Part shown: piece after piece, positions 3,332 through 29,108 of the stretch
Layout: each line of letters opens with the position of its first letter
Numbering within the stretch: position 1 is the first letter of the stretch
IMG/VR virus record: IMGVR_UViG_3300032893_001364
Location: 1 to 32,555 of that record
Strand: one strand, 5' to 3'
Origin: a virus
Length of the DNA: 32,555 nt
Notes under the pieces: model-generated
What the model was told of the DNA's origin: nothing
What the model saw: the letters and a program-made list of their open reading frames with translations, nothing else
Database searches by the model: none
Translations under genes and position numbers: made by a program

Positions 3332-4628
3332 CATACCAACGAACCCAAAATCACTGGAAGATCGAAGTAAAACTGACCTTGTTGCAGAGCTTCCTTCAAC
3401 GGCAAATCCGTTTCTTCAGGAATCATGGATGGCAGCACAGGCAATTGCCAATGCTCGCCGCGTGTATGAGTTCTATCAACAATTGACCATCCTCGAACAA
3501 GAAGCAATCCCCATCACCGCACAGGAAAAGGTTCAGCAATGGGCATCGTATTGGGGTCTGACCTTAAATCCGGCAACCCAGTCTGCTGGTAATGTTATTG
3601 CAACCGGAACAGCAGGAACGCTGATTGACACCACGGCGCAACTTCAGGCGTCGAATGGAATTCAGTATGGGATTACAGCGGCGGCAACTATTTCAAATCA
3701 ATCTGCCGGTATTTCATCACTGACTCATGTTGGTCTGGTAGCAACCGCCGTATTGACTTCGAACATAAGCATGTATACCGGAATGACGATGACCATTTCA
3801 GGGGCGGTTCAGTCTTCATACAATGGCGATTTTACGATCACCGTTTTAAGTAATAACTCCTTCACCTATACAATGGCATCGAATCCCGGAGCGAACGCTA
3901 CCGGAACCCTTTTGGCAGCATTTACAACTGCCGTATTGCAGGTGCAATCAATTCAGTTCGAGGGTGATGCTGGTGCTGGTGAAGTGAATCAGGATGCAAA
4001 TGCTAAACTAACCATCGTTTCTCCGATCGTAGGGGTCAACAACAACTTCTACGTAGATCAGGGTGGACTTGGCGGCGGCGTGATTCAGGAAACGATTTCA
4101 CAACTAAAAACAAGGCTTATTAACAGGGTTCAGAATCCGGTTGCCATGTTCAATGATGCCGCGATCCGCGCCAATATCATTGACAATATACCCGGAGTTA
4201 CGGGAGTATTTATTCAGGACGCTACCCCCGCTGCCGGTCAGGTGACTATCTATTTTGTGCGTGCCAATGATGCAAGCCCGATCCCATCCGGTGCAGACGT
4301 AACAGCCGTTTATAATCAAACGCTGAAAATTAAACCGGCAAATACACTGAGCAGTGATGTAATAGTTTCTGCTCCGACTCCAGTTGCCACTACTTTTAAC
4401 TTCACGGCAATGACCCCGAACGACGCAGGAACACAGGCAGCGGTAACGGCTGCTTTGGATGCTTTGTTTCGTGATGAGGGCGCTGTAGGATCGCCAATGA
4501 CCAAGGTTCAGTACAACGCAGCGATAGCCAATGCAGGCGTTACCGCTTTCACCCTGTCGTCACCAACTGGCGATATTGGTGGCGGCGCAAGTCAGTATCC
4601 AACTCTATCGGGCGTTAATTATCCATGA
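3324..4628 (+). CDS. Baseplate J-like protein (Mu gp47)
   Basis: 434 residues, starting at a GTG with GGGAG seven bases upstream and overlapping the gp46-like gene. The flanking parts match baseplate J/Mu gp47 (T4 gp6-type wedge protein): an N-terminal helical segment, then VNNNFYVDQGGLGGGVIQETISQLKTRLINR in the middle, and a C-terminal alpha/beta domain. Residues ~124-196 look like an inserted small beta domain (THVGLVATAVLTSN to YTMASNPGANATG), a type also seen as decoration in phage tail proteins. The protein builds the baseplate wedge around the hub. It ends in an ATGA overlap with the next gene. Confidence 0.85.
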   Translation: MLNIPTNPKSLEDRSKTDLVAELPSTANPFLQESWMAAQAIANARRVYEFYQQLTILEQEAIPITAQEKVQQWASYWGLTLNPATQSAGNVIATGTAGTLIDTTAQLQASNGIQYGITAAATISNQSAGISSLTHVGLVATAVLTSNISMYTGMTMTISGAVQSSYNGDFTITVLSNNSFTYTMASNPGANATGTLLAAFTTAVLQVQSIQFEGDAGAGEVNQDANAKLTIVSPIVGVNNNFYVDQGGLGGGVIQETISQLKTRLINRVQNPVAMFNDAAIRANIIDNIPGVTGVFIQDATPAAGQVTIYFVRANDASPIPSGADVTAVYNQTLKIKPANTLSSDVIVSAPTPVATTFNFTAMTPNDAGTQAAVTAALDALFRDEGAVGSPMTKVQYNAAIANAGVTAFTLSSPTGDIGGGASQYPTLSGVNYP

Positions 4629-5304: not shown

Positions 5305-6558
5305 ATGCAATCGTTAACAGGCAAAGCTACAGGCGACACCTTAACCGCAACCGAGTGGAATCAACTCCCGCAGGAGGTTCAGAATGTCATCACGGCATTA
5401 GGCCAAAGCCTATCAAACGGCGATCTAAACCAATTAGGAAAAGCGATTGCTGGTTACGCCGCATCTTCTGAGTTTTTCACTGATTCTGGTACAGCCAATG
5501 CTATTAACTTGGTACCGGGAGGAAGCCTACAAGCGCCTACCAGTTTCCAGAATGGTATGCGCGTTCGCCTTCGTAAAGGCATCACCAATACTTCAAACGT
5601 CACTCTGGTTGTTGGCTCGCTTGCATCCAAAAAAGTTCTTGACCAGACAGGATCAGCACTTGCCTCTGGTGATTTAACAGCCGGACTACCTTACGAGTTC
5701 TGGTATGACATTACTGCAGACTCAGCAGCAGGCGCATGGATTTACAAAAAGCCTTCCTCGCTTACCAACAGTCTGCCACGCAATTATATTGATGGGCTGA
5801 TACTTTCAAACAACGCAACGACGCCAGCAACCTGTCTGGATATTGCAGCTGGTACTTGCAAAGATTCAGCGAATACAACCGACTTCACGCTCGCTTCGGC
5901 AATGAGCAAACAGATTACTGCTACATGGACGCAAGGCGGCACTCCCGGGACACCAGTAGGCGGATTCCCCTCTGGATTAACCTCGGGCGCACCTGTAAAT
6001 AACACTTGGTACATGGTATTCGCAATTTGGAAGCCGAGTGGCCAAGTGGACTTCGGGTTTGACATTTCATCCAATGCCGCACAACTTATGGCTTCCGCAA
6101 GCGGATCTGGCTATACCAAATACCGTCAGATAGGATGGATTCGATACGGAGTTGGGACAATCCTGAAGTTTTTCCAAAATGGAAACAATTTTGAGTATGA
6201 CGTTCCAATTCAAGATATTTTTGGACTAAATACGGCCAACACTGACATAAAAACAGTCACAGCCCCTCCTAATACAAAAGTTGACTTTGCTGTTTTTGTG
6301 GCGAACTCTGACGCAAGCTCAAGTAACACTGTGTACATGAAATTAAGGCAAACACAGGAAACATCAGCCATTGCGGGCTCGGCGGGTTTTGATATGCAGG
6401 CAGTGAGATCAGCAGGCGCATGGACTTCCCCTTGCTCCGGGAAGGTTTCGCAATACGTTGACAGTTCGAGTCAGTTGAAACTTTCTGTTTCAGACACTGC
6501 CAGAACATTCGTTACATTATCAGCTTGCGGCTGGACTGATTACCGAGGTCAGCAGTAA
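5305..6558 (+). CDS. Tail fibre / receptor-binding protein
   Basis: 417 residues, last gene of the tail operon, preceded by GAGGA about ten bases upstream. The N-terminal ~60 residues (TGDTLTATEWNQLPQEVQNVITALGQ) resemble the attachment segment of many phage fibres. The rest is rich in Ser, Thr, Gly, Asn and Ala with repeated short beta patterns, as expected of a trimeric fibre. No chaperone gene or invertible segment is seen after it. Position after the gp48-like gene equals that of the Mu S fibre. Sequence of the C-terminal receptor-binding part is not recognised, so the host receptor cannot be inferred. Confidence 0.7.
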   Translation: MQSLTGKATGDTLTATEWNQLPQEVQNVITALGQSLSNGDLNQLGKAIAGYAASSEFFTDSGTANAINLVPGGSLQAPTSFQNGMRVRLRKGITNTSNVTLVVGSLASKKVLDQTGSALASGDLTAGLPYEFWYDITADSAAGAWIYKKPSSLTNSLPRNYIDGLILSNNATTPATCLDIAAGTCKDSANTTDFTLASAMSKQITATWTQGGTPGTPVGGFPSGLTSGAPVNNTWYMVFAIWKPSGQVDFGFDISSNAAQLMASASGSGYTKYRQIGWIRYGVGTILKFFQNGNNFEYDVPIQDIFGLNTANTDIKTVTAPPNTKVDFAVFVANSDASSSNTVYMKLRQTQETSAIAGSAGFDMQAVRSAGAWTSPCSGKVSQYVDSSSQLKLSVSDTARTFVTLSACGWTDYRGQQ

Positions 6559-6573
6559 TAAGTAATGCTTCCG

Positions 6574-6622
6574 CTCCCTGCAACAGCCAGTATCGTGGCT
6601 CCCTACGCTACTGGCTAGGGAG
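6574..6622. terminator. Hairpin between convergent genes, candidate bidirectional terminator
   Basis: AGCCAGTA at 6585-6592 pairs with TACTGGCT at 6609-6616, and CTCCCT at 6574-6579 pairs with AGGGAG at 6617-6622, leaving a five-base bulge on the left arm. The hairpin covers the gap between the tail fibre stop and the RuvC-like stop and reaches a few codons into the latter. It has no strong T-run on either side, so intrinsic termination is plausible but not certain. Confidence 0.5.
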
Positions 6623-7111
6623 TGGAGGCATCACTAAAACACTTGCCTTTGGATCGTACAAGGCAATTAAAATAGCGTCACAGCGGCCATCCTTCAGCCC
6701 TCCCATTCGGCCACGGATATTTGCCTCCGGGTAGATGGTGTCCACAACATCTGCAGAATGTATACCTTCCTTCGTTTTTCCAACTACGCCAAACTGCTTT
6801 TGCCACTTTTTGGGCTGGACTACTTCGTAAGGTATTTCCAGAACCTCCAGAACCGAGAAAACAGCTTGGTATGACATCCCGAAGGAAAACATGGATGAAA
6901 CCCCTTGCCCGGGCATGGCGCTTGCTCGCTCGACGTTTACGCGCTCAGGCCTGTGGCGCAGTAACGCGTCTGCCAGCGCCTTTGAGTCAACCATATTGCC
7001 TTTGTCCCACTGGGTGGGCTTTTTCGGCATGTCTATCACTTCGAGTAGGGTGAAGTCGTTAAAAAAAGCGATGCCGCCGCTCAAACCAACATCTATGCCT
7101 GCGTAAATCAT
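6608..7111 (-). CDS. RuvC-like Holliday junction resolvase
   Basis: 167 residues with an RNase H-like RuvC fold. The first acidic residue is D7 in GIDVGLSGG, the second is E61 in RVNVERA, and a C-terminal pair D141/D145 lies in LKDGRCDAILIALYD. This is the catalytic acid set of RuvC-type endonucleases, which cut four-way DNA junctions. In a phage it would resolve recombination or replication intermediates before packaging. It is the last gene of a three-gene leftward operon, 24 bases after DUF1367. GGAAC lies upstream of the ATG. It could be annotated crossover junction endodeoxyribonuclease; the exact substrate is inferred. Confidence 0.85.
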   Translation of the reverse strand: MIYAGIDVGLSGGIAFFNDFTLLEVIDMPKKPTQWDKGNMVDSKALADALLRHRPERVNVERASAMPGQGVSSMFSFGMSYQAVFSVLEVLEIPYEVVQPKKWQKQFGVVGKTKEGIHSADVVDTIYPEANIRGRMGGLKDGRCDAILIALYDPKASVLVMPPLPSQ

Positions 7112-8023: not shown

Positions 8024-8053
8024 TTGTCAACTGTATCAAAATTGATATATCAT
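8024..8053 (+). promoter_or_regulatory. Rightward early promoter with operator TATCAAAATTGATA
   Basis: TTGTCA (8024-8029) and TATCAT (8048-8053) are separated by 18 bases. The spacer is filled by the 14-bp palindrome TATCAAAATTGATA at 8034-8047. Transcription would start near 8060, downstream of the ATG at 8055, which supports the later ATG at 8106 for the first gene. Confidence 0.65.
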
Positions 8054-8105
8054 TATGTTGTGGTTGAGGCAATTACGCCCAACCAGCAACCTAGAGGAAC
8101 TACAC

Positions 8106-8381
8106 ATGAAAGTCATTGGATTCAGCTCAAAATGCTCAAAAAGCTACGAATCAGTCGAAGCAGCAGAAAAAGCCATTGCTTCACACATCGTAAAAATCAG
8201 AACTGGTTTAACCCAGCAATCTGCTTACTACAAAGAATTTTCTGACACCATCCGAGTGATGATCGTGCCTGCTAACGATGATAGCAGCCGCTTCATACCA
8301 GTTGCCTGCCTGACCCGCGAGCAATTTGGTTTGGCATCACCATTCTTTGTTAACTACAAATTCCCGGTACTCGGCCTATAA
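8106..8381 (+). CDS. 91-aa early protein of unknown function
   Basis: Starts MKVIGFSSKCSKSYESVEAAEKAI and ends at 8381; AGAGGA lies about eight bases upstream of this ATG. An in-frame ATG at 8055 would precede the predicted transcription start, so it is not used here. I do not recognise a family. The protein is compact, with a helix-like segment at residues ~18-40 and strands after it, and has no membrane segment or signal peptide. As the first gene behind the early promoter it is a candidate host-takeover protein (inference). Its 3' end is followed at once by a GC-rich hairpin and a hammerhead ribozyme, so its transcript may be cut free from the downstream message. Confidence 0.7.
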   Translation: MKVIGFSSKCSKSYESVEAAEKAIASHIVKIRTGLTQQSAYYKEFSDTIRVMIVPANDDSSRFIPVACLTREQFGLASPFFVNYKFPVLGL

Positions 8382-8387
8382 ACGACC

Positions 8388-8453
8388 CGCCCCGAAAGGG
8401 GCGCTGTCGGGCGGTGTGTACTGCTCCTGATGAGTCCTAAAGGACGAAACAGC
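8388..8453 (+). ncRNA. Type III hammerhead ribozyme with upstream GNRA hairpin
   Basis: The conserved core CTGATGA (8427-8433) and GAAA (8446-8449) flank stem II GTCC/GGAC (8434-8437, 8442-8445; loop TAAA). Stem I runs from 8409-8415 to 8420-8426 (7 bp including two G-U pairs; loop GTGT 8416-8419). Stem III is GCTG 8403-8406 with CAGC 8450-8453 and is open-ended, hence type III. The cleavage triplet is GTC at 8406-8408, so the cut falls between 8408 and 8409. The canonical positions (G10.1-C11.1, C15.2-G16.2, A15.1-U16.1, C17) are all satisfied. The element is preceded by hairpin CGCCCC-GAAA-GGGGCG (8388-8403), which could cap the 3' end of the upstream mRNA. Activity is inferred from structure. 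Confidence 0.85.
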
Positions 8454-8478
8454 AACTTTTAATTAAATAGGTGATTTT

Positions 8479-9522
8479 ATGAAACAAGGCAAAACTTTAA
8501 GTCAACTGGCAGCAGAGCTGGAGCGTCAGCAAAATAGCAAGCGCGACCTCGTTGCAGATACTCGGAAGTTAACCATGCTTTCAACTGAGAATTCGTTCCA
8601 AGTTGAAATCAATGGTGCAAAAGAAGTGTTTCCAATTACTGATATTGCAGGCAAGCAATTGGCCGACCACGCCGGTATCCCGCAAAAGTATTATGACCGC
8701 ATGCCGCAGGATTTACGTGCTACCAATGTCAACCACTGGTTACAAGCCGAACCTGCCAAGCGCATGGTGCGTACTTTAGATGGTAAGGCCAGAGCATTCC
8801 TTTCTGATCGTTATCGTATGCTGGACAATTTTGACCTTGCAGAAGCAGTTCTGCCGGTGCTTCTAGGAGTTCCGCAAGCAAAGATCGTTTCATGTGAATT
8901 GACTGACCGCCGCATGTATATCAAGGCATTGTTTCCAAAGATTGAAGGCGAGTTGAAAGTTGGTGATCTGGTTCAATCTGGCGTGGTAATCAGCAACAGT
9001 GAAGTCGGTCAAGGTAGTTTGCGAGTTGAGCCTTTGGTTTTCCGACTGGTTTGCAGTAACGGAATGATCAGCAATATGTCAAAACGTGCTTACCATCTTG
9101 GCAAGGCTTTAGGCTTAGAAGATAATGCGCGGGAAATTTACCGCAATGAAACAATCACTGCTGACAATAAAGCATTCTGGATGAAAATTCAGGATACAGT
9201 TCGTGCTTCGGTTGACCAGAATTCATTCAATACTATCGTGAAAGAAATGCAACGCACGATGGGTATGGAAATGGAAGCCGATCCAGTGACAGTGATTGAG
9301 CGAGTACAAAAGCGTTTCATGTTCAGTGATGCTGAAACAGGTTTGGTAACTCGCCACCTGCTTGGTGAAAGTGATTTTACAGCATTCGGATTATTGAATG
9401 CGGTAACTCGCACTTCGCAGGACTTGAGTGATTACGACCGCGCTACTGACTTCGAGCGTTTTGGTGGTCAAATCCTTGAGCTTGACAAGGGTGAGTGGCA
9501 CCAACTGGCTAAAGCTGCGTAA
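8479..9522 (+). CDS. DUF932 phage protein
   Basis: 347 residues matching the DUF932 / phage-plasmid-like family: an N-terminal strand-rich part (FPITDIAGKQLADHAGIPQKYYDRM), then VRTLDGKARAFLSDRYRMLDNFDLAEAVLPVL, then VISNSEVGQGSLRVEPLVFRLVCSNGM. These are common early genes on phages and plasmids; molecular function is not established to my knowledge. AGGTG is eight bases before the ATG. The gene starts 26 bases after the hammerhead ribozyme, so after self-cleavage its mRNA would begin with a 5'-hydroxyl G at 8409 and stem I, giving a 70-base leader. A strong terminator follows 9 bases after its stop. Confidence 0.85.
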   Translation: MKQGKTLSQLAAELERQQNSKRDLVADTRKLTMLSTENSFQVEINGAKEVFPITDIAGKQLADHAGIPQKYYDRMPQDLRATNVNHWLQAEPAKRMVRTLDGKARAFLSDRYRMLDNFDLAEAVLPVLLGVPQAKIVSCELTDRRMYIKALFPKIEGELKVGDLVQSGVVISNSEVGQGSLRVEPLVFRLVCSNGMISNMSKRAYHLGKALGLEDNAREIYRNETITADNKAFWMKIQDTVRASVDQNSFNTIVKEMQRTMGMEMEADPVTVIERVQKRFMFSDAETGLVTRHLLGESDFTAFGLLNAVTRTSQDLSDYDRATDFERFGGQILELDKGEWHQLAKAA

Positions 9523-9531
9523 TACTTTAAT

Positions 9532-9561
9532 GAGGCTCTGGAGTTCAGAGCCTCTTTTTTT
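9532..9561 (+). terminator. Rho-independent terminator after DUF932 gene
   Basis: A perfect 9-bp stem GAGGCTCTG (9532-9540) / CAGAGCCTC (9546-9554) with loop GAGTT is followed by seven T (9555-9561). The next gene starts only 11 bases later, leaving no room for a promoter between them. Confidence 0.9.
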
Positions 9562-27050: not shown

Positions 27051-27451
27051 ACTGCCAAAAATTAACATGGCACCAATTTGACATCGCGGTTGATCGTCTT
27101 GCCGAGCTTCTGAACCCAGTCAAAGGAAAGAAACTGATATACGGCCAGCCGCGTGGCGGAATGTGTCTTGCAGTAGCATTAAGCCACAGGCTCCAAATTC
27201 CTCTCACAGCGGTAGCCAGAGGGCATGACAATCTGATATGGGTAGACGACATAATTGATACAGGCGACACGCATACGAAGGCCAGAAGCACCATGCCTCT
27301 CAATACGATATTTGCTGCTTGGATGGGCAGGCATCATAACCACGGCTGCTATGTGGCAGAAATTTTAACAACTGACGACTGGCTCGTATTCCCTTGGGAA
27401 GATCCAGAAGCCGCTGAAATGGAGTACGAGAACTATGTTAATCGCCGTTAA
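27047..27451 (+). CDS. Phosphoribosyltransferase-fold protein
   Basis: 134 residues from the ATG at 27047 (ATGA overlap). The PRPP-binding motif is LIWVDDIIDTGDTHTKA (residues ~64-80), with the Asp pair and TGDT loop. The flavin-free type I fold also shows KKLIYGQPRGGMCLAVALSHRL. Substrate cannot be read from sequence; a purine or 7-deazapurine salvage step is possible given the operon. The 3' end overlaps queE by 17 bases. Length is short but complete for this fold. Confidence 0.75.
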   Translation: MNCQKLTWHQFDIAVDRLAELLNPVKGKKLIYGQPRGGMCLAVALSHRLQIPLTAVARGHDNLIWVDDIIDTGDTHTKARSTMPLNTIFAAWMGRHHNHGCYVAEILTTDDWLVFPWEDPEAAEMEYENYVNRR

Positions 27452-29108
27452 TGAAATGTTTTACACGATCCAAGGTGAGGCCACCCATACGGGTAAACCT
27501 TCCGTATTCATCCGATTACAGGGCTGTAAAGTCGGATGCCCGTGGTGCTTTGCTGATGGTACAAAAGTCCTAATGGCAGATTTTACTCAAAAGGCAATTG
27601 AAGATGTTAAAGTTGGTGAGCAAGTTCTTTCATATAATTCTAAAAAAAGAGAATATATAGTTAGTAATGTTGTCGATGTTACATCCCATGAGGAAAATAC
27701 ATTAGAGTTAGTAACACGATCAGGAAAAAAAGTTGTATGCACCGACGAGCATATTTTCCATACAAATAAACGCAAAAGCCGTGTTTCTGTAAGAAAAAAA
27801 CCTGCAAAAGAAATGGCTGGCATGGCAGCGGTAACAACTCCAACCTATGACATATCTTCTCCACATATATCCGAAGGCTTTATGCGCGGATATTTGATGG
27901 GCGCTATGGCAGGGGACGGTTCGACGTCTATGTACAATGGCTGTCTGAAATTTCATTGGCAGGTATGTGATATTGAGTTTGCTGAAAGAATTTCAGATTT
28001 TGTAAATTATTTTGGTAGAGATACATATGTCAGAGAAGCTAAAAGAAAAACGGTCACTGGAAAAACAGTATACCGAGTTGATCTGATAGCAAGAGACTTA
28101 AATTGGATACTTAATTATCCAGACACGCTTGAGGAAACGAGGGGATATATATCTGGATTTTTTGATGCTGAAGGAACGGTTGGAAGTGGATTGAGTTTTT
28201 CACAAAAGGATGAAAAAACTATTTCCAGAGTAAAAACTATGCTTGATGCTCATGGTTTTTGTTCAGTTCTTAAGGATTACTCAGCGAAGCATGATATTTA
28301 CAATCTTTTCCTAAAAGGTGGGAAACCTGAGATAAGTAGATTTTTTGATTATTTCGACACAGCTATTACAAGAAAATCTAAAAAAATCAGGCAGCGTATT
28401 AAACATACTCTCAACAGCGATATAGTGGAATCAGTACAAAGAATTGGAATTAAAAAAGTGTTCAATTTAATGACCACGAAAGGAAATTTCTTTGCAAATC
28501 AAATGCTTGTTGATCAATGCGACACCAAGAACACATGGGGTTTGGAAACCGGTTATGAACTTCCACCTGCTGAATTAATTGCCAAGACTTCAGACCAGCC
28601 CTCCTTCGCATGGTTCCACGTAGAACAATTGGTCAAGGAAGTAGAAAAAATGGGACACGAAAATTGCCATGTAGTGATCACTGGTGGCGAGCCACTGGAG
28701 CAGGAAATCGAAGAATTGGTGACCCAATTGATTAGCGCCAGACATACCGTACAAATCGAAACATCTGGAACCGTCAGAATCCCAACGTGGACAGTTTCTA
28801 ACAAGCCAATGCCATGGGTGACGCTTTCGCCAAAAATTGGCATGCCGGGAGGAAAGGAGGTTAATCCAGTGGACTTGCTTCTGGTAGATGAAATCAAGTT
28901 TCCAGTAGGCAAAGCGGCTGACATTGAAATCCTGAAAACCTTCATTGGTTACAAAAGCAAGGACGAACCGGGAGCGCAACCAAAGGGCGGTATCTGGCTG
29001 CAACCATTGAGTCAGAACCCAAAATCAACACAAGTTTGCGTGAATGCTTGTAAGGAATACGGCTGGCGTTTATCGCTACAGACTCATAAGTACGCCGGAC
29101 TACGATGA
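27435..29108 (+). CDS. queE: QueE (7-carboxy-7-deazaguanine synthase) interrupted by an intein
   Basis: 557 residues as translated. The QueE N-part (NEMFYTIQGEATHTGKPSVF, then LQGCKVGCPW) and C-part (CDTKNTWGLETGYEL, VVITGGEPLEQ, TVQIETSGT, VDEIKFPVG) flank a 324-residue intein (residues 38-361). Splicing would give 233 residues and rebuild GCKVGCPWCDT, the radical-SAM 4Fe-4S motif, as in Escherichia coli QueE (223 aa). The enzyme contracts carboxytetrahydropterin to CDG. The third cluster Cys (362) is also the +1 nucleophile of splicing. It starts at an ATG overlapping the phosphoribosyltransferase gene. It cannot be active unspliced (inference). Confidence 0.92.
   Translation: MLIAVNEMFYTIQGEATHTGKPSVFIRLQGCKVGCPWCFADGTKVLMADFTQKAIEDVKVGEQVLSYNSKKREYIVSNVVDVTSHEENTLELVTRSGKKVVCTDEHIFHTNKRKSRVSVRKKPAKEMAGMAAVTTPTYDISSPHISEGFMRGYLMGAMAGDGSTSMYNGCLKFHWQVCDIEFAERISDFVNYFGRDTYVREAKRKTVTGKTVYRVDLIARDLNWILNYPDTLEETRGYISGFFDAEGTVGSGLSFSQKDEKTISRVKTMLDAHGFCSVLKDYSAKHDIYNLFLKGGKPEISRFFDYFDTAITRKSKKIRQRIKHTLNSDIVESVQRIGIKKVFNLMTTKGNFFANQMLVDQCDTKNTWGLETGYELPPAELIAKTSDQPSFAWFHVEQLVKEVEKMGHENCHVVITGGEPLEQEIEELVTQLISARHTVQIETSGTVRIPTWTVSNKPMPWVTLSPKIGMPGGKEVNPVDLLLVDEIKFPVGKAADIEILKTFIGYKSKDEPGAQPKGGIWLQPLSQNPKSTQVCVNACKEYGWRLSLQTHKYAGLR
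27546..28517 (+). mobile_element. LAGLIDADG homing-endonuclease intein in QueE
   Basis: 324 codons. Block A starts CFADGTKVLM (Cys1). Block B is VVCTDEHIF with TxxH at intein residues 66-69. Two LAGLIDADG motifs are LMGAMAGDG (117-125) and ISGFFDAEG (202-210), with acidic D124 and E209, typical of the DOD endonuclease. The end is KKVFNLMTTKGNFFANQMLV then Asp323-Gln324 before Cys+1. The usual His-Asn is replaced by Asp-Gln, a rare C-terminal variant. Base composition is more AT-rich than the flanking queE, in line with a mobile insertion. Boundaries are set by comparison with the uninterrupted QueE motif. Confidence 0.92.

Follow-up and report, generated by a model that had tools for sequence, protein, structure and literature searches.

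The locus lies in a 32,555-base fragment of an uncultivated phage (an IMG/VR record), hereafter the window, which carries Mu-like baseplate genes, a terminase and a replication/recombination block; INPHARED holds no near-identical phage DNA. A gap of 97 nt (8382-8478) separates two genes on the + strand. The upstream gene (8106-8381), which has no family match, encodes 91 aa from an ATG behind AGAGGAA; a longer reading frame (8055-8381) matches no PHROG and no Pfam family, and the start is most likely ATG 8106 rather than ATG 8055. The downstream gene (8479-9522, + strand) encodes a DUF932 protein of 347 aa (phrog_1362, PF06067), with a ribosome-binding site AGGTGA, read from the sequence, at 8469-8474 (+). 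Upstream of the first gene is a promoter-like site, TTGTCA-18-TATCAT (8024-8053, +), a consensus match only (10 of 12 positions) of a kind found four times against 2.9 expected in shuffles, and 10 nt past the DUF932 stop codon is a strong intrinsic terminator with a 10-bp stem and T7 (9532-9554, +). The unit probably reads promoter, small gene, hairpin, hammerhead, DUF932 gene, terminator. Given the promoter-like site and the terminator, the cut would split a two-gene unit and, short of antitermination of RNA polymerase, not a long operon. The preliminary description had spoken of an early phage operon; the label 'early', drawn from gene content only, fits the early-type replication and recombination genes downstream (HNH endonuclease, DNA methyltransferase, RecT, exonuclease, O-like initiator and DnaB), but the transcription unit looks short. 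Elsewhere in the window (27435-29108), a 557-aa ORF has Hint, intein splicing and LAGLIDADG domains and also matches radical SAM: an intein inside a radical SAM gene.

Within the gap, positions 8403-8453 (+) form a complete type III hammerhead ribozyme, recognized by motif and by Rfam match. Stem III pairs GCUGU (8403-8407) with ACAGC (8449-8453); stem I (8409-8426) has seven pairs, GGGCGGU (8409-8415) with ACUGCUC (8420-8426), around a GUGU loop, the most frequent loop I of the hammerhead set; and stem II (8434-8445) has four, GUCC (8434-8437) with GGAC (8442-8445), around UAAA. The catalytic core consists of CUGAUGA (8427-8433) and GAA (8446-8448). Every position of the type III core (C3 U4 G5 A6 N7 G8 A9, G12 A13 A14, A15.1-U16.1 and H17) is in place, at 8407-8408, 8427-8433 and 8446-8449, and three helices of 5, 7 and 4 bp surround the core with stem III open-ended, the arrangement that defines type III. 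By established hammerhead numbering C17 of the GUC triplet is C8408, so the cut is predicted 3′ of it (8408/8409), 70 nt upstream of the DUF932 ATG at 8479.

When the whole window was searched with all Rfam families, RF00008 gave 39.7 bits (E 2.1e-5), the sole match at E ≤ 1; the score lies below the 48.5-bit gathering score, a curation cut-off and no property of the ribozyme. A phage type III model built from 37 phage hammerheads, with the window copy and its nearest relative left out, scored the window at 69.5 bits (E 1.2e-21) and that relative at 70.5 bits. A descriptor search returned no match in 3.26 Mb of dinucleotide-shuffled window and one in reversed control loci. Across 39 phage type III copies, 99.7% of cells in the alignment are paired and 12 of 15 pairs have changed on both sides; the covariation score of these 39 sequences is 0.660, as against 0.186 when shuffled and at most 0.114 in slid alignments. 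The nearest relative of the DUF932 gene (L002, 64% identity) carries a hammerhead at the same site, 19 nt upstream of its DUF932 ORF, and its stem I (UGUUGAU/AUCAACA) differs from that of the window by four double compensatory changes; its loop is likewise GUGU, and its H17 is U. The preliminary description had placed a complete type III hammerhead in the 97-base gap, cutting after base 8408 and 70 bases before the DUF932 start, and these statements hold, the cut as a predicted position. It had also proposed a covariance-model search, which fell short of the Rfam cut-off but was significant by E value and with the held-out phage model, and a comparison with relatives for compensatory changes, which bore the helices out.

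The segment comprising hairpin and ribozyme (8386-8455) has exactly the proposed structure as its minimum free energy (MFE) fold (-29.6 kcal/mol, z -3.1). In a longer fragment (8380-8460) an alternative is slightly preferred (-31.8 versus -29.6 kcal/mol), with CGAC (8383-8386) paired to GUCG (8406-8409) across the cleavage site. Stem III is absent from the MFE fold in 95 of 123 type III copies, so the preference at least partly reflects missing tertiary energy. Conservation of the loops (GUGU; NAAA) over varied stems is consistent, at the level of sequence, with a contact between loops I and II. A ribozyme under riboswitch-like or protein control, switched by the CGAC/GUCG pairing or by translation of the upstream gene, could exploit such a competing fold, which occurs in the window and, by MFE, in L002. 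We hold this to be very improbable, as the loss of stem III is generic, the loops measure 4 nt and there is no conserved aptamer-like insert. The alternative fold was likewise rejected as a conserved switch, most type III copies losing stem III in the same calculation.

Immediately upstream, and adjoining stem III, lies a 6-bp hairpin with a GNRA loop, CGCCCC-GAAA-GGGGCG (8388-8403, +), which we propose to cap the upstream mRNA at its 3′ end; G8403 may pair within it or, instead, within stem III. As an intrinsic terminator of the + strand the hairpin was ruled out, having no T-run, and only the - strand scored, weakly. It has a positional counterpart in the majority of type III copies and in L002, whose own abutting hairpin is GGCGC..GCGCC, and a second hammerhead in the L002 contig is likewise preceded by a hairpin. 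The gene upstream of the ribozyme is unrelated between the window and L002; since it is not conserved, a role at the 3′ end would not be bound to one gene.

We searched IMG/VR with a pattern in which only CUGAUGAGUCC, NAAA and GGACGAAACAG were fixed, leaving stem I and the 5′ strand of stem III free. The matches listed, a sample from 27 contigs, each fold as type III with a stem I of about 7 bp. Type III copies sit between co-directional genes, mostly 20-40 nt past a stop codon and 10-40 nt before a start, with gene borders in the surveys called mechanically. Nearly all type III copies of this first set have an upstream hairpin whose sequence varies and whose end always adjoins stem III. Many contigs bear several ribozymes in series, for example three each in L102 and L118; among other ribozymes, L303 has at least eight type II hammerhead pattern matches between successive genes, and L380 has five twister pattern matches.

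Hammerhead types differ in what cleavage leaves behind. In types I and II the ribozyme stems stay on the upstream product, whereas in type III only five unpaired nucleotides of stem III do. A hairpin ending 0-4 nt upstream was present in 34 of 48 type III copies, as against 10 of 136 of type I and 15 of 184 of type II (non-redundant IMG/VR; pattern scans favour certain stem II sequences, so these counts are samples among the matches listed). Fisher tests, which assume independence after thinning at 75% identity, gave p 3e-17 for type III against type I and p 4e-18 against type II. The median distance from stop codon to ribozyme was 33 nt in type III, -0.5 nt in type I and 2 nt in type II, and no hammerhead type showed clear enrichment of hairpins on the 3′ side. 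The result was replicated in GTDB genomes, with a hairpin at 46 of 65 type III copies versus 6% in shuffles. About 30% of type III copies fail the strict hairpin criterion, most of which keep a hairpin with a mismatch, a larger loop or an offset; an independent type III copy in L410, a contig chosen for its twister, also has the hairpin. In some compact genomes, L506 and L540 among them, the capping hairpin overlaps the gene end, likely with the stop codon in its loop.

The same division runs through the twisters. The P1 hairpin of type P5 closes immediately upstream of the bond that is cut, which is not so in type P1; an abutting hairpin accompanies 10 of 17 P1 but 1 of 36 P5 twisters (p 9e-6), and the median gaps from the stop codon are 27 nt and 1 nt, respectively. 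In HDV-like ribozymes the cut falls at the ribozyme's own 5′ end, and the sole genuine case (n=1), in L358, is preceded by the hairpin GCCCCUUCGGGGGC one nucleotide before the cut. Two pattern scans for further HDV-like cases gave little besides chance matches within coding DNA; the genuine ones, in L008/L009, are the same element as in L358. Searches of 50 ribozyme-bearing phage records for pistol, hatchet and HDV ribozymes gave no match, nor did the positive controls. The hairpin appears to be confined to ribozymes whose cut, without it, would give the upstream mRNA a single-stranded 3′ end.

The hammerhead might cut and the hairpin do no more than help it fold, stacking on the short open stem III or shielding it from upstream sequence, without any part in 3′ stability; stem III is merely 4-5 bp, and in most copies the hairpin is 0-2 nt away, near enough to stack. 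We regard this as unlikely. Short open stems without the hairpin are likewise found in P5 twisters and in hammerheads of types I and II, the spacing ranges from 0 to at least 3 nt, which is loose for coaxial stacking, and the HDV-like ribozyme (n=1) has a hairpin without a comparable open 5′ stem. That the added hairpin tracks the position of the cut and not the class of ribozyme favours a role at the 3′ end over a folding aid.

Because a type III hammerhead cuts near its own 5′ end, it would remain with the downstream RNA, and the upstream RNA would have a bare, single-stranded 3′ end. RNA ends composed of a hairpin, a short tail and a cyclic phosphate resist poly(A) polymerase and 3′ exonucleases, and a 5′-hydroxyl end resists RNase E. 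From the motif, its covariation, its position and the distribution of hairpins across ribozyme types, we infer cleavage in the cell, the chemistry of both ends, their stabilization and a benefit. We propose, with a probability of about 0.7, a two-part RNA-processing unit that gives the upstream mRNA a hairpin-capped 3′ end and the DUF932 mRNA a 5′-hydroxyl. The 6-bp GNRA hairpin would be fused to the type III hammerhead between the stop codon and the next ribosome-binding site, and the hammerhead would cut the two-gene transcript after C8408. The hairpin at 8388-8403 would supply the structure otherwise missing from the upstream 3′ end, which would then consist of the hairpin, a 5-nt tail (or GAC/GUC paired back) and a 2′,3′-cyclic phosphate, a poor substrate for poly(A) polymerase and one with too little overhang for 3′ exonucleases to take hold of. 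The DUF932 mRNA would start with a 5′-hydroxyl and stem I and should resist RNase E entry. One promoter would thereby give two mRNAs that decay separately.

Around DUF932 the ribozymes vary. A type III hammerhead upstream of the gene was found in the window and in L002 and in none of the other relatives examined. The type I hammerheads of L003 (2276-2330 and 4077-4132) sit some 0.7 kb before DUF932 and directly behind it; L013 has P5 twisters on both sides (2877-2929 and 4060-4117), L005 a P5 twister after the gene, and L008/L009 a type II hammerhead and the HDV-like ribozyme farther upstream. Different ribozyme classes thus occupy the borders of the same gene in relatives. More distant DUF932 relatives mostly lack ribozymes, and DUF932 as a general ribozyme neighbour was rejected: in a scan of further relatives at the gathering score only L013 has adjoining ribozymes, and L089 has one 1.6 kb downstream. 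The relative L090 has a group I intron (6448-6789) about 2.4 kb past its DUF932 gene.

Some of these arrangements could speak for a main role at the 5′ end of the DUF932 mRNA, where cleavage would remove the leader and leave a uniform 5′-hydroxyl hairpin start, as in RiboJ, the upstream hairpin being secondary: L002 has kept its hammerhead before DUF932 despite a different upstream gene, and L013 has a P5 twister before the gene as well as after it. Yet the ribozymes sit close to the stop codon and not to the start, several follow DUF932 or many unrelated genes, and the downstream 5′ end is structured in type III and not in type I, which together make a primary 5′-end function improbable. RiboJ is an engineered insulator derived from sTRSV, in which a hammerhead and a hairpin separate RNA parts; its hairpin follows the hammerhead and serves the ribosome-binding site, whereas that of the window precedes it and would end the other mRNA.

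Whether the preferred reading, hairpin-capped 3′ ends, extends to phage self-cleaving ribozymes at large seems to us an even bet. They would then be formers of mRNA 3′ ends, with a hairpin always ending the upstream mRNA as a terminator substitute despite read-through by RNA polymerase; the ribozyme's own stems would serve in type I and II hammerheads and P5 twisters, and an added hairpin in type III, P1 and HDV-like ribozymes, a corollary to which we give the same even odds. The role of the thousands of phage hammerheads and twisters has been open since 2011, and a hairpin that depends on the cut would offer a simple, testable answer, namely protected 3′ ends for single-gene mRNAs. Such a role would explain why different ribozyme classes occur at the same kind of position, here round the same DUF932 gene, and it predicts effects on half-life measurable with ordinary reporter constructs.

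Perreault et al. (2011, PMC3088659) suggested that hammerheads between co-directional phage genes divide long transcripts into mRNAs the size of a gene. The same study reported cleavage of prophage hammerhead arrays in vitro and in vivo. It also described, in haloviruses HF1/HF2, a hammerhead lying 13 nt ahead of an early helicase gene, where a transcript end had been mapped no more than 3 nt from the point of cleavage (PMC3088659). The use of a hammerhead as a phage mRNA processing site, which the preliminary description had presented as new, thus goes back to an earlier proposal; its other suggestion, a GNRA-capped hairpin at the end of the upstream product, agrees with the GAAA hairpin at 8388-8403, which is real by sequence. 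Placement between co-directional genes is common to those arrays and the window, but the text of PMC3088659 does not relate a hairpin to where the ribozyme cuts and mentions neither terminators, stop codons and exonucleases nor an upstream hairpin. Splitting transcripts by hammerhead had already been proposed, and the hairpin at 8388-8403 looks to be the new part; no description of it was found in the open-licence literature searched, and one in a subscription journal is possible. With the type III hammerheads of the satellite RNAs sTRSV and sLTSV (RF00008) the window copy shares the core, three stems, open stem III and GUC triplet. Unlike them it lies in an intergenic gap of a DNA phage rather than in a rolling-circle RNA, and has a 4-bp stem II, 4-nt loops, an abutting hairpin and a score below the Rfam gathering threshold. 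Phage P1 and P5 twisters share the intergenic placement, and P1 also the abutting upstream hairpin, but differ in catalytic fold.

A hammerhead identical over 49 nt to that of the window lies in L102 (6088-6136, - strand), otherwise a different phage, with a different upstream hairpin, different neighbours and a chaperonin gene nearby. It looks as though the ribozyme travels as a small module. Such identity might also be expected of a non-functional relic or a passing mobile module; this we consider a very long shot at the present locus, where the core is intact, the stems covary and a hairpin persists although its sequence turns over.

Among the GTDB copies, 36 of 65 type III hammerheads (L504-L553) have GTTCTTT or GATCTTT within 22 nt on the 3′ side (0.4 expected by shuffling), a motif that we take to be similar to the boxA of rRNA antitermination and that may link these ribozymes to antiterminated transcription. 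The contigs concerned are mostly Patescibacteria MAGs; the motif accompanies 0 of 58 IMG/VR type III hammerheads and is absent from the window. Some MAG contigs, from Patescibacteria and others (L516, L522, L528, L544 and L504), carry genes for GyrB, LigA, a helicase, an ABC substrate-binding protein or tRNA nucleotidyltransferase, and since these are housekeeping-type genes, the hammerheads on them may be chromosomal rather than phage-borne.
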